IMG/VR virus record: IMGVR_UViG_3300021437_000051
Location: 1-38,729 of that record
Direction: 5' to 3' (one strand)
Source: a virus
DNA length: 38,729 bases
Shown here in pieces: positions 9,633 through 34,268 of this stretch. The notes beneath the pieces were generated by a model, which saw only the letters and a program-made list of their open reading frames with translations, made no database searches and was not told where the DNA came from. How positions within the stretch are numbered: the stretch's first letter is position 1; each line of letters starts with the position of its first letter. Made by a program: the position numbers and the translations under genes.

Positions 9633-9932
9633 ATGACCAATAAAGAAATTCAGTCAGTTAAGCGCGTTCCAAATCCCAAGGGACGAACTCCCGGCGTTCC
9701 AAACAAGGCAACAGCCAATGCTAGAGCGGCCATTGCTCGCTTGGTTGATGACAACGCATTGCGTATGCAGGGATGGCTAGATCAGATTGCTGAAGAACAG
9801 GGTGCATTGGCAGCTTGGAAATGCATGTCTGATGTCATCGAGTACCACATCCCCAAGTTGGCGCGCACTGAACACACAGGCGCGGATGGTGGTGAGATCA
9901 AAACTAGCCTGACCGTCAACTTTGGCAAATGA
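9633..9932 (+). CDS. Terminase small subunit-like protein
   Basis: A 99-aa protein beginning MTNKEIQSVKRVPNPKGRTP. The basic GRTPGVPNKAT stretch followed by a helix (ANARAAIARLVDDN) and AWKCMSDVIEYHIPKLART is characteristic of DUF5681-like small terminase proteins that recognise phage DNA for packaging. The stop overlaps the large subunit ATG. TAGGGG lies nearby upstream as a ribosome-binding site. Confidence 0.75.
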   Translation: MTNKEIQSVKRVPNPKGRTPGVPNKATANARAAIARLVDDNALRMQGWLDQIAEEQGALAAWKCMSDVIEYHIPKLARTEHTGADGGEIKTSLTVNFGK

Positions 9933-11197
9933 CAGATATCAGGATTGGAAAGCCGTTCAGGTTCCTATTCGAGAAAAGTCGGGGAAAAGTTGCCTATGGT
10001 GGTCGAGGGAGCGGCAAGAGTGTCTCGTTTGCACGGGCTCTCCTGGTGCAGGGTGCAGCCTCCCCACTCAAGATACTGTGTGCACGCGAGACGCAGACAT
10101 CGATCAATGAATCCGTGTATGACCTGCTGCGTACACAGATAGGCGAATGCGACATTGAATCGTTCTATGACGTTCTGGCGAACGAAATCAGGGGAAAGAA
10201 TGGCACCCGTTTTGTGTTTGCCGGCCTGAGGCAACAAGGGATTGCCAACATCAAGTCGTTCAATGATGTTGACAGATGCTGGGTAGAAGAAGCCCAAGTC
10301 GTCAGCAAGCGATCGTGGGATGTATTGCTTCCTACCATCCGCAAGCCGGGGTCTGAAATCTGGTGTTCAATGAACCCGGAACTAGACACGGATGAAACCT
10401 ATCTGCGGTTCATTCAGACGCCCCCGGATGGGTGGATTGTCCGCAGGGTGAACTATGATGAAAATGAGTGGTTTACGGATGAACTCGAAGCGGAGCGCCT
10501 GGACACACTCAAGCGCGACCCGGCAGGCTACAAGAACATTTGGGACGGTGAGCCGAGGGCGGCAGTTGATGGCGCTATCTATGCCGATGAGGTGGCGAAG
10601 GCATATGAACTCGGGAGAGTTAGAAACATTCCGCACGATCCCCAACTACGGACACATGTTGTCTTTGATCTTGGCTTCAATGACTCCATGGCGATCATTC
10701 TGGTGCAGAAAGTGGCGTCAGAAATCCGGGTCATTCATCACATTGAAGACTCTCAGCGCACATTGGCTAGCTATTCGCAAGAGTTGAAAACGTTGGACTT
10801 TGGTGGTGAGCCGATCAATTGGGGCTCTGTCTACCTGCCTCACGATGGGTTTGCGGTCAGGCATCAGTCAGGGATTGATGATGCAAGCGTCATGCGGGGC
10901 CTAGGTTGGACGATTGCCCAGACGCCTAACACTTCTGTCGAGTCTGGCATCAATCGAAGCCGTGAGATGTTTTCCCGTGTCTACTTTGACGCTGAACGCT
11001 GCGACAGGCTGCTCCAATGTCTGAAGCGTTACCGCAGGCACATTAGTAACTCGACTGGGGCTATTGGGGCGCCGATTCACGACGAGTATTCACACTCTGC
11101 AGACGCATTCCGGTATCTGGCGTTGAACGAAAGCCAGTTGACCAATGAGGAATGGGGCGGACAGAAGATGAATTACCCGAGATTGAATTACGCCTAG
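9929..11197 (+). CDS. terL: Terminase large subunit (PBSX/Terminase_3 type)
   Basis: A 422-aa packaging motor. The ATPase domain has Walker A GGRGSGKS near residue 24, a coupling and Walker B region VDRCWVEEAQ near 113, and a C-motif-like WCSMNPELDTDETY. The nuclease domain starts at THVVFDLGFNDSMAIILV with its metal-binding Asp and continues to HDEYSHSADAFRYLAL, which carries the final conserved Asp. The length is normal for the family. It overlaps the small subunit gene (ATGA). The stop is followed within 2 bases by repeat copy 2 and then by a structured RNA element. Confidence 0.95.
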   Translation: MTDIRIGKPFRFLFEKSRGKVAYGGRGSGKSVSFARALLVQGAASPLKILCARETQTSINESVYDLLRTQIGECDIESFYDVLANEIRGKNGTRFVFAGLRQQGIANIKSFNDVDRCWVEEAQVVSKRSWDVLLPTIRKPGSEIWCSMNPELDTDETYLRFIQTPPDGWIVRRVNYDENEWFTDELEAERLDTLKRDPAGYKNIWDGEPRAAVDGAIYADEVAKAYELGRVRNIPHDPQLRTHVVFDLGFNDSMAIILVQKVASEIRVIHHIEDSQRTLASYSQELKTLDFGGEPINWGSVYLPHDGFAVRHQSGIDDASVMRGLGWTIAQTPNTSVESGINRSREMFSRVYFDAERCDRLLQCLKRYRRHISNSTGAIGAPIHDEYSHSADAFRYLALNESQLTNEEWGGQKMNYPRLNYA

Positions 11198-11198
11198 A

Positions 11199-11211
11199 AA
11201 ACGGGCACACG
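11199..11211 (+). repeat. Dispersed 13-bp repeat AAACGGGCACACG, copy 2
   Basis: Exact copy, non-coding here, starting two bases after the large terminase stop codon. Confidence 0.75.
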
Positions 11212-11234
11212 CTGCTTGTTGTTTATTGAATAGA

Positions 11235-11349
11235 CTGCCAACAGTTACCTAGCGTGGCAGCTAAACATAGCCCTTTAGTCAGGGTTCCCATGGGAGAAAT
11301 CCCAACAGCCGCCACGCTCGGGAACCTTGACTAAAGGGCTTTTTCTTTG
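11235..11349 (+). ncRNA. Structured RNA element ending in a strong terminator
   Basis: A 21-bp helix with one G-U pair joins AGCCCTTTAGTC... (11269-11289) to 11320-11340, followed by TTTTTCTTT, so it can terminate transcription. Its 30-base loop holds a small GNRA-capped hairpin (TGGGA-GAAA-TCCCA, 11291-11304) and AGCCGCCACGCT (11307-11318). The latter can pair with AGCGTGGCAGCT upstream (11251-11262, one mismatch), which would form a pseudoknot. The upstream strand can instead pair as CTGCCA/TGGCAG (11235-11240 with 11255-11260). It lies between the terminase and HNH genes. It may be only an elaborate terminator, or it may be a processed or regulatory RNA. Confidence 0.6.
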
Positions 11350-11414
11350 GTCAAGCGATATGCAGGCAGGGAGGGATAACCGCCGACGCTGCGTATTGGA
11401 ATGGGCCAAGGACG

Positions 11415-11618
11415 ATGCACAAGGGCCAAGCGTGGGTGATAGTGGATAGAGCGCGTGCGGGGTCGAGATATCAAATCGGCGGAAAGTCTTTCCTATATGT
11501 ATGCGTCCGAGGGGAACTCAGGAAGCAGGCATTCACGGGCTTTGTTCATTCAGAGCTTGGGGATGCTATGCCAACGAACCGGAAGAATCTAGGAAGCAGT
11601 AGGAAAGACAATGGCTAG
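11415..11618 (+). CDS. Small hypothetical protein before HNH gene
   Basis: A 67-aa frame starting MHKGQAWVIVDRARAGSRYQ with AAGGA just before the ATG (short spacing). The N-terminal two thirds have a plausible beta-rich pattern (KSFLYVCVRGELRKQAFTGF). It overlaps the HNH gene by 8 bp. It lies downstream of the terminator-like RNA element. The function is unknown and the reality of the gene is moderate. Confidence 0.45.
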   Translation: MHKGQAWVIVDRARAGSRYQIGGKSFLYVCVRGELRKQAFTGFVHSELGDAMPTNRKNLGSSRKDNG

Positions 11619-12018
11619 CAAACAAGTAAAGCAACTGATAGCAAGACAGAGGAAAGCGGGATATGTGGTCAAACTGCTTTCAATGTCTGACAATGAAATT
11701 GCTGAGTCAATTCGCAGAAGTTCAGACGGTTTCCTCTTTTCCCCTGAATGGCGGAAATTACGGGATGAAACTGTCAATAGGTATGGAACGCAATGCATGT
11801 GCTGCGGAATCCATCCGAAGCCAAAAAATTTGAATGTTGACCACATAAAGCCGCGTAAATTATTCCCGGAGTTGGCGCTTGATCCTGAAAATCTGCAAAT
11901 ACTTTGCGGGCGCTGCAATAAAGCAAAGGGCAATAAGCGATTCACTGACTACAGAAACGGGCACACGATAACCCGCAATAAATTGCTAGCCTTAGGACAT
12001 GACTGCGGATTCCGTTGA
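11611..12018 (+). CDS. HNH endonuclease
   Basis: A 135-aa nuclease. The HNH core is complete: CMCCG (zinc pair), LNVDHIKPRKLFPELALDP (the catalytic His in DH), ENLQILCGRCNKAKGN (the second zinc pair and the final N). The N-terminal region is basic and helical. AGGAAAGACA precedes the ATG. HNH proteins beside the terminase, such as HK97 gp74, assist packaging-related cleavage, so this is a likely role; a free-standing homing endonuclease is the alternative. Repeat copy 3 overlaps its C-terminal coding region. Confidence 0.85.
   Translation: MASKQVKQLIARQRKAGYVVKLLSMSDNEIAESIRRSSDGFLFSPEWRKLRDETVNRYGTQCMCCGIHPKPKNLNVDHIKPRKLFPELALDPENLQILCGRCNKAKGNKRFTDYRNGHTITRNKLLALGHDCGFR
11955..11967 (+). 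repeat. Dispersed 13-bp repeat AAACGGGCACACG, copy 3
   Basis: Exact copy inside the HNH gene near its 3' end, read there as RNGHT, a different frame from copies 1 and 4. This shows that DNA rather than protein sequence is conserved. Confidence 0.75.
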
Positions 12019-12053: not shown

Positions 12054-14477
12054 ATGAAGCCGGAACCAATTAGCGACGATGAATTGCTCGTTATCACTGA
12101 CAGAGAGATTCGCAACGCATTTGGCTACCGCACTGGCAAATTGTCCGAAGCAAGGCGCAAGGCTTTGCAGTATTACATGGGCGTCGCGGTTGGCGATCTA
12201 GCTCCACCGGACATTGAAGGGCGTTCGCAGGTTGTGTCGCATGATGTTGCGGACACCATTGAGGGGATGCTTCCTGAACTGCTGAAGATATTCACCGCAG
12301 GCGACAATGTGGTGGAGTTTCAGCCTCAGTCTGAAGGCGATGAAGAAGCTGCAGAGAATGCGACGGACTACTGCAATTACGTGTTCTATCGGCAGAACAC
12401 GGGATTTCAGACGCTGTACACATGGTTCAAGGATGCGCTGCTGTCAAAGGTTGGTATTCTCAAGGTCTATTGGGATGACAAGGTAGAAGTTGCCCGAGAG
12501 GTCTATAACGGCTTGAGTGATGTTGAACTCGCCACCATTGCGGACGATGAGGAAGTCGAGATCATCGAGCATACGGCAGTCCCGGATGAGGATGCCGAAG
12601 AACAGAAGCAGCAGGTTGTCCAGCAACTAACGGAACAGTTGCAGCAGATGCAGGCCCAGGCGCAACAGATGCCTCCGGAGCAGATGCAGACGGTTGGACA
12701 GCAGATGCAGCAGCAAACGCAAGGGTTGATGCAGCAATTGCAGCAGGTTCAGTCAACACCTGTACCGCCGTTGCACAACATCACATGCAAGCGAAGCAAG
12801 AAGTGCGGACGTGTACGCATTGAAAACGTCCCGCCTGAAGAATTCCTGTTTAGCCGTCAGGGCAAGACGGCGAAAGAGACGCCATTCGTTGCGCATCAGC
12901 GGCAGCTTACTTTGTCTGACCTGCGTCAAATGGGCTATGACGTTGGCGACGATCTGACAGACGATGATCAGATCAGCGCATTGTCTGCGGAACGAATCGA
13001 ACGTGTGTCGTCTGACGATGAGTACGGCGGTTATGCGTCTGCGTATGAAAGCGGGGCAACGACTCCGGCCATGCGTCATATCTGGGTGACAGAGTGCTAT
13101 CTGCAGGCCGATAGGAATGGCGACGGCGTAGCTGAATGGCTTAAGGTACTGCGTGCTGGTCATCAGTTGATCGATGTTGAAGAGTGCGACGGACCTCCGT
13201 TTGTCACCATCTGCCCGATTCCACTACCACATCGCTTCTTCGGGCTGTCTATCGCTGATGTGACGATGGAAACGCAACGGGTGAAGACTTCACTGCTGCG
13301 GGCTGCACTCGACAATCAATACATCCAAGCCAACGGGCGTAATTGGGCGGTTGAAGGTCAAGTGAACCTTGATGACCTGATGACATCGCGTCCTGGTGGC
13401 GTTGTGCGGGTCAAGACACCTAACGCGGTTGGCCCAATGCAACAAGGGTTGGGCGATTCACAAGGCGTCATGAGTCTGCTTGAGTACATGGAAACCGTCA
13501 AAGAGGCTCGCAGCGGCTATAAACGCCACGGTCAATCGACTGACACCAATGCGCTCAGCACGACAGCAACAGGCGTTAACGCTGTCCAAGAGGCTGAAAG
13601 CGAACGGGTTGAACTGGTGGCCCGCATCTTTGCTGAAACAGGCGTTACTGACCTGTTCAGCATGATCCTGAAACTTGTTTGCCAGTATCAGGACAAGCCA
13701 GCACAGATGAAGGTTGCGGGCAATTGGAAGATTGCAGACCCGCGTGAATGGCGAAACAAGTTCGACCTGATCATCAATGTCGGGCTTGGCACAGGAAACA
13801 AAGATGCCATTGTTAGCCACTTGATGGCGCTGCAAAACTTCATGGCAGGCCCTGCCGCAATGGCGGGCATTGTTCAGCCTGAGAATCTGTACAACTACGG
13901 CGAAGAGCTTGTGAAGAATCTCGGGATTAAGTCGCCTGACAAGTTCTTCACATCACCCGACAAGATTCAGCCGCAGCAACCTCCTCCACCTGACCCAATG
14001 ATTGCGATCAAAGGGCAGGAATTGCAGGTGCGCACGCAAGAGATACAAGCGGACATGGCTAAAACGCAGATGACCTTGCAGGCGCAGGCAACACAGGCGC
14101 AGCAGGATAACCAATTGAAGCTGTACATCGCGGAACTCAACAGCAAGACGCAGGAAGTTGTCGCGCAGATGAAAGCTTCTATCGATGAGCAATCGCAAAT
14201 CCTGAACGCTCAAGCCAATCAGCAGCGTGCAGAGAATGAAAACTTGCGCAGCCAAATCATGATGCTGGACAAGATGCAGCAGGCCACATTGCAGTCTGCG
14301 TCTAACAGCACCATGCAACAGGCCAACAATAACGAGAGCGGCAACCACGTTGCTACTGCATTGGCAGGGTTGGCAGATGGTATCAAAGCCTTGCAAGAAC
14401 TTCACAGCAAGCCCAAGGATATTCAATTCGTACGCGATCCCAATACTGGGAAAGCATTAGGCGCGAGGGTGCAATGA
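12054..14477 (+). CDS. Portal protein (P22/podovirus-like, large)
   Basis: An 807-aa portal forming the DNA channel at the capsid vertex. N-terminal landmarks are LSEARRKALQYYMGVAVGDL and SQVVSHDVADTIEGMLPELL, followed by QTLYTWFKDALLSKVGILKV. A Gln-rich coiled insertion lies at about residues 180-245 (QQLTEQLQQMQAQAQQM). The crown/barrel end is a long Gln-rich coiled coil (residues about 640-770). The start at 12054 is used with AAGG five bases upstream; a TTG at 12015 overlaps the HNH stop and is the alternative. It is followed by an ATGA-coupled small gene. Confidence 0.9.
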   Translation: MKPEPISDDELLVITDREIRNAFGYRTGKLSEARRKALQYYMGVAVGDLAPPDIEGRSQVVSHDVADTIEGMLPELLKIFTAGDNVVEFQPQSEGDEEAAENATDYCNYVFYRQNTGFQTLYTWFKDALLSKVGILKVYWDDKVEVAREVYNGLSDVELATIADDEEVEIIEHTAVPDEDAEEQKQQVVQQLTEQLQQMQAQAQQMPPEQMQTVGQQMQQQTQGLMQQLQQVQSTPVPPLHNITCKRSKKCGRVRIENVPPEEFLFSRQGKTAKETPFVAHQRQLTLSDLRQMGYDVGDDLTDDDQISALSAERIERVSSDDEYGGYASAYESGATTPAMRHIWVTECYLQADRNGDGVAEWLKVLRAGHQLIDVEECDGPPFVTICPIPLPHRFFGLSIADVTMETQRVKTSLLRAALDNQYIQANGRNWAVEGQVNLDDLMTSRPGGVVRVKTPNAVGPMQQGLGDSQGVMSLLEYMETVKEARSGYKRHGQSTDTNALSTTATGVNAVQEAESERVELVARIFAETGVTDLFSMILKLVCQYQDKPAQMKVAGNWKIADPREWRNKFDLIINVGLGTGNKDAIVSHLMALQNFMAGPAAMAGIVQPENLYNYGEELVKNLGIKSPDKFFTSPDKIQPQQPPPPDPMIAIKGQELQVRTQEIQADMAKTQMTLQAQATQAQQDNQLKLYIAELNSKTQEVVAQMKASIDEQSQILNAQANQQRAENENLRSQIMMLDKMQQATLQSASNSTMQQANNNESGNHVATALAGLADGIKALQELHSKPKDIQFVRDPNTGKALGARVQ

Positions 14478-34196: not shown

Positions 34197-34268
34197 TGGA
34201 CAGGGCATGGGAATCGAACCCATATCGCCGTTGTACATCAACGGGCTCTACCGTTGAGCTAGCCCCGC
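34197..34268 (-). tRNA. tRNA-like sequence, likely attP core (degenerate)
   Basis: On the minus strand the sequence folds as a cloverleaf: GCGGGGC/GCCCTGT acceptor (with G-U pairs), D arm GCTC/GAGC, anticodon arm CCGTT/AACGG with loop GATGTAC, and T arm ATGGG/CCCAT with loop TTCGATT. CCA follows the T at 34200. Base 26 is missing, the variable loop has four bases, and position 33 is A rather than U, so it is probably not a working tRNA. It lies 0.2 kb upstream of the integrase, the usual place of an attachment site that copies a host tRNA gene. Confidence 0.55.

Follow-up and report, generated by a model that had tools for sequence, protein, structure and literature searches.

The window, by which we mean the whole stretch of 38,729 bases analysed here (viral record IMGVR_UViG_3300021437_000051), carries on its plus strand a gene encoding the terminase large subunit (9929-11197; PHROG 3717/2 and TIGR01547) and, downstream of it, a gene encoding the portal protein (12054-14477; PHROG 1216 and alignment with L001), the open reading frame of which opens at a TTG at 12015 and has its likely start at the ATG at 12054. 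The interval between these neighbours is occupied by a cassette of RNA and HNH gene (11198-11998, plus strand), delimited by blastn against L001. Its gene encodes an HNH endonuclease of 135 aa (11611-12018, plus strand; PF01844, 4.7e-12, and alignment with the HNH family) and is preceded by a pseudoknotted terminator and by a second leader region (11343-11610, plus strand), which lies in the position held in relatives by a structured RNA, here called RNA2. A 67-aa ORF was also found between terminase and portal, for which there was no family match. Elsewhere in the window a tRNA-Thr gene (anticodon TGT) is located at 34198-34268 on the minus strand, opposite to the structural genes.

The closest relative, L001, has a terminase protein 96% identical to that of the window. 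When the two were compared by blastn, the matches stopped at 11193 and restarted at 11999 (DNA identity 83% and 82%), and since the terminase-portal gap in L001 measures only about 43 bp, it is the additional 800 bp or so, with the RNA and the HNH gene in them, that set the window apart. The final HNH codons (11999-12018) extend into the sequence shared with L001, which is the ancestral region 5' of the portal gene. Among the terminase relatives L001 is the only close one and it lacks the cassette; in the more distant ones, read by eye, the terL-portal junction was found without the RNA and in some cases with a different HNH gene. Loci L016, L017, L020 and L027, also read by eye, carry an unrelated HNH-type gene directly after the terminase, in the same slot, which therefore appears to be a hotspot. 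No DNA similarity to the window region was detected among 50,697 phage records.

The 5' part of the leader is built around a 21-bp stem, P2, which includes one G-U pair and whose 5' arm (11269-11289, plus strand) and 3' arm (11320-11340, plus strand) were identified by folding, the former also in a survey of such stems. The 3' arm is followed directly by TTTTTCTTT, with a U-run at 11341-11349, so that P2, as a G+C-containing stem with a U-run, has the structure of an intrinsic (Rho-independent) terminator. The P2 loop (11290-11319) is 30 nt long and contains a 5-bp hairpin with a GAAA tetraloop, P3 (11291-11304, plus strand; folding), and a 12-nt strand A', AGCCGCCACGCU (11307-11318, plus strand). 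This strand pairs at 11 of 12 positions with strand A, AGCGUGGCAGCU (11251-11262, plus strand), located 5' of the stem, with a duplex energy of -20.1 kcal/mol; none of 3,000 dinucleotide shuffles reached the A/A' score, which is 26. Strand A is also part of a small hairpin, P1 (11250-11263, plus strand; TAGC-GUGGCA-GCUA), the loop of which lies within it. Linkers L1 and L3 measure 6 nt and 1 nt. The region 11225-11350 as a whole has a minimum free energy of -58.5 kcal/mol (z = -7.4), and no shuffled sequence folded equally well. The pseudoknot-terminator module was defined by a strand A 5' of P2, a strand A' adjoining the 3' arm, a P2 of at least 17 bp and a U-run, and the window has each of these parts. 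The structure, a pseudoknot in which the terminator loop pairs with a strand 5' of the stem, is strongly supported.

Related modules were sought in a stem survey of all loci on both strands, which gave 240 long stems with a U-run, 207 of them with a testable flank. An A/A' score of at least 17 was found in 157 of the 207; the corresponding numbers were 14 when the flanks were shuffled and 22 when they were swapped. At a score of at least 15 there were 166 modules in phage loci, with 78 distinct A/A' pairs, and all show the order seen in the window (A, P2 arm, hairpin, A', P2 arm, U-run). Their P2 is mostly 21-25 bp long, and in 153 of the 166 strand A' directly abuts the 3' arm (L3 = 0). These modules were partly selected on A/A' itself, and for this reason the selection on P2 alone and the swapped-partner control matter as checks: when loci were picked on the P2 arms alone, 81 of 82 distinct loci reached the score (22.8 expected from shuffles), and with swapped partners the figure stayed low (22/207).

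Base pairs were counted in an alignment of 19 distinct sequences. All 133 A/A' cells are paired, with 37 double changes, no single change and no broken pair. No shifted register approaches this, and a slide by one column cuts the pairing to 23-39%. Among the modules of the stem survey, GC, CG, AU and UA were all seen at each of seven A/A' positions. The compensatory changes that keep A/A' lie in relatives of the window module only, no close homologue of the window's own module having been found. Judged from these alignments, the pairing is kept by selection across many phages while its letters change freely. The P1 hairpin around A gave a mean score of 12.2 in the relatives, against 8.4 with shuffled flanks, and was supported by its score in 62 of 78 modules compared with 25 of 78; of its five pairs, one is for the most part not formed in the alignment used for counting.

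The initial annotation of this region had described the 21-bp terminator stem, its organised loop with a GNRA (GAAA) hairpin and the 12-base loop strand pairing with the sequence 5' of the stem, and its coordinates and pair counts proved correct. The comparison with homologues that it had proposed as a check shows that the loop pairing is a conserved pseudoknot, and the feature does lie in the leader of the HNH gene, next to a terminator. It had also proposed that strand A can pair, as an exclusive alternative, with CTGCCA at 11235-11240 (plus strand). This second pairing exists in the window, but at only -8.2 kcal/mol compared with -20.1 kcal/mol for A/A', and it is specific to the window and not conserved, as the mean score of CTGCCA-type alternatives in the relatives (9.54) is no better than that of shuffled sequences (9.66).

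Homologues of the HNH gene often have upstream of them a long terminator-like stem and then 200-400 nt of conserved structured RNA. The order of the cassette is an optional promoter, the pseudoknotted terminator, RNA2 and an optional HNH endonuclease. Three types of RNA2 (alpha, beta and gamma) were aligned, and the alpha and beta types have consensus structures with double changes. Pattern scans of the viral collection yielded at least 120 beta, at least 101 5'-module and at least 64 alpha stretches. Within 1,500 nt downstream an HNH gene follows 16 of 61 alpha loci, 6 of 96 beta loci (among the matches listed) and 5 of 82 module loci with enough flank. Since only a minority of cassettes is followed by this gene it must be regarded as optional, and the cassette must serve more than the control of HNH. 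Where the loci left room for it, the 5' module was found in 20 of 30 alpha cases and in 35 of 96 beta cases (the latter among the matches listed), 81-110 nt ahead of the RNA2 core. In two bacterial genomes (L499 and L500) the beta core occurs without an obvious 5' module, which indicates that the parts of the cassette are separable. The RNA2 region of the window itself, searched by blastn and nhmmer against all loci, gave short matches and no match to the alpha, beta or gamma type. Representative cassettes of these three types, one of each, had no match in the 50,697 phage records, and no description of the cassette or the module was found in the literature searched.

In some alpha cassettes (L418, around 2258-2400; L437, L336, L357 and L390) the cassette is followed not by HNH but by a short ORF (about 40 codons) that shows a CxC ... 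CxxC pattern and possibly encodes a zinc-ribbon protein. A stretch resembling a tRNA T-arm, such as GGGUUCAAGUCC, is present in the RNA2 region of some gamma and delta type RNAs (L039, L050 and L065).

The 3' end of RNA2 contains two copies of a sequence of 6-11 nt: X1, preceded by GGCUCC, and X2, which is preceded by CACC and lies at the 3' edge. This sequence varies between loci; nevertheless X1 and X2 are identical or nearly so within most of them (L058, L036, L071, L140 and L191 among others). No complement of X was found inside the RNA, and the X of a given locus scored no better than a swapped one. A 9-nt direct repeat in the window, AGGAAGCAG, can be tentatively assigned to the same rule, with X1 at 11520-11528 and X2 at 11591-11599 (both plus strand), the latter ending 11 nt before the HNH start codon; at P = 0.021 this assignment is suggestive only. 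The X1 = X2 rule is a testable regularity of RNA2.

The cassette was also found at other sites. In T7-like relatives it is placed between the terminator of the scaffold gene and a promoter-like sequence belonging to the capsid gene. In close T7-like relatives the same site is empty: its total length is about 220 nt, and it has only the terminator, the promoter-like sequence and a leader; these empty sites come from a capsid-based scan (among the matches listed), and their flanks are too diverged from those of the filled sites to place the junction to the base. The element-bearing loci include no empty site, having been retrieved through the element itself. The beta cassette is the neighbour of a small HTH regulator in other phages, as judged by eye from the protein sequences, and the insertion sites often follow the terminator of the preceding gene. 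As both empty and filled versions of the same sites exist, the cassette comes and goes. Comparison shows a cassette present or absent at a given place, with a 5' module oriented toward the HNH gene. In loci L418-L497, from T7-like phages, the major capsid gene is preceded by a conserved leader (GGACAACCGCAAGGCC ... CUGGACAACC; about 120 nt) that has a promoter-like sequence of its own, and the four of these leaders compared with Rfam (L418, L429, L437 and L458) gave no match. The scaffold-capsid interval of L433, L435 and L437 holds a further short conserved RNA-like sequence (GGGGAAAGCGGATGCTGGCA ... GTAGCGAGTACCC).

Of 78 modules, 51 have a box resembling the -10 element (at least 5 of 6 positions) upstream of A, where 22 were expected, and in 35 of these 51 it is TATAAT-like and lies 11-13 nt before A. 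Given this position just before A, transcripts would start at P1. RNA2 follows the 5' module within about 80-110 nt, which leaves no room for another obvious promoter, and RNA2 and HNH would therefore need read-through of the terminator. In the window no sigma-70 promoter could be recognised just upstream of A, nor any separate one in the whole terminase-portal interval. Unless it is read through, a terminator located here would therefore also affect the portal gene and the later genes, so the suggestion made in the initial annotation, that the element gates transcription of all structural genes, may still hold for the window phage. It does not hold as a general property of the cassette, which in T7-like phages sits before the capsid gene's own promoter-like sequence and in most relatives is not followed by HNH.

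The explanation that we favour, and to which we give an even chance, is that we see here the 5' domain of a structured leader RNA from a phage cassette with the capacity for a small HNH gene, and that the A/A' pairing acts as a brake on termination. As RNA polymerase advances, P1 would form first, and A' would then emerge before the 3' arm of P2 and pair with A. By the standard geometry of an A-form helix, a chain as short as the linkers (in the window 6 nt for L1 and 1 nt for L3) would be unable to run along both helices, for which reason the full 21-bp P2 and the full A/A' probably cannot coexist. Before the base of P2 could close beside the U-run, A/A' should then have to open, and the pairing may delay or limit closure of this base, the part that causes termination. 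With such a built-in brake a set fraction of transcripts would continue into RNA2 and HNH, and the remainder would stop at the terminator, giving a short stable RNA about 100-140 nt long. We infer that the role of the module is probably the tuning of read-through.

Other readings of the same data have to be weighed against this one. The 5' module could be an independent small RNA, acting in trans or as a partner of RNA2 or HNH, with any read-through incidental. The promoter-like box before P1 and the U-run after P2 would delimit a discrete transcript, the wide variation of A/A' is what orthogonal recognition would give, and most cassettes lack the HNH gene. This reading we consider possible, if somewhat unlikely, as RNA2 comes directly after it, at a near-constant distance where both are found and with no obvious promoter of its own, and as the window has no recognisable promoter and no target is known. 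P2 with its U-run also fits an ordinary intrinsic terminator, at insertion sites that often follow the terminator of the previous gene, and A/A' might then only stabilise or protect the RNA end, no regulated choice being involved; the double changes in A/A', the L3 of 0 and the frequent structured RNA downstream would all be left unexplained, which makes this account unlikely. Far harder to accept is an alternation of strand A between CTGCCA and A', as the initial annotation had it: both pairings are possible in the window, but the weakness of the first and its lack of conservation make such a switch very improbable. Long regions may well contain a 12-nt match by chance; with no shuffle in 3,000 as good and covariation in many relatives, however, chance complementarity is scarcely credible here.

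Another possibility is that the leader RNA is a cofactor of the nuclease, helping HNH to find or cut DNA as the HEARO or omega RNA does with IscB. The HNH gene comes directly after the RNA, its domain matches the HNH domains of IscB and Cas9, the internal X1 and the 3'-edge X2 of RNA2 change together between loci, and ORF-less copies exist. On the other hand the protein consists of the HNH domain only (about 115-135 aa in its short form) and scores 36 bits where the IscB cut-off is 175, the Rfam comparison gave no HEARO match, and no sequence complementary to X is present in the RNA; we therefore regard such a role as improbable. The same holds, as a long shot, for a bolder proposal, in which the pseudoknotted terminator and RNA2, the latter ending in an internal copy (X1) of its own 3' flank (X2), would form one self-contained RNA and represent a new class of mobile element in phages. 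The minimal HNH nuclease recruited by this RNA would depend on it for targeting DNA, and X1 would specify the target site. The unusually clean covariation of the loop-to-terminator pairing makes a tertiary contact acting on an intrinsic terminator directly testable.

Well over a hundred contigs of uncultured phages contain the structured RNA module, and Rfam covers only a fragment of one subclass. The only family found in the window and the loci was RF02932 (Betaproteobacteria-1), in the beta subclass; its 120-nt core corresponds to the middle of the beta RNA2 and omits the 5' pseudoknot module, the 3' X1/X2 domain and the alpha and gamma subclasses. This core adjoins HNH in L044 and elsewhere occurs without it. 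The window itself had no RF02932 covariance-model match above the gathering score and no Rfam match to a known riboswitch or cis-regulatory family, and the alpha and gamma RNA2 and the 5' module had no Rfam match either.

The HEARO or omega RNA that works with IscB is a structured RNA directly 5' of an HNH-bearing ORF, is mobile and has ORF-less copies. The cassette resembles it in all these respects, but differs in having no HEARO covariance-model match in Rfam (window and loci), an HNH-only protein and its own promoter and pseudoknotted terminator. The window protein (PF01844, 46.3 bits against a Pfam cut-off of 21.4) lacks the combination of RuvC and HNH that characterises IscB and reaches 36.2 bits with the IscB profile NF040563, far below the cut-off of 175. 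Compact HEARO enzymes have been described (PMC9755519). The cassette HNH domain is closest to the HNH enzyme of phage GVE2 and to the HNH domains of Cas9 and IscB.

Type III toxin-antitoxin operons consist of a promoter, a pseudoknotted RNA, a leaky terminator and a nuclease gene, in that order. The cassette has the same layout, but it lacks tandem RNA repeats, its nuclease belongs to the HNH family rather than being a ToxN-type RNase, and most of its copies lack such an ORF. Free-standing HNH homing endonuclease genes of phages are small, lie between essential phage genes and are absent in close relatives. The HNH gene of the window is likewise small, placed between terminase and portal and absent from L001, the window and L001 forming the pair of occupied and unoccupied sites. 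It differs from the free-standing genes in that the HNH of the cassette is accompanied by a conserved two-part structured RNA, which also occurs alone.
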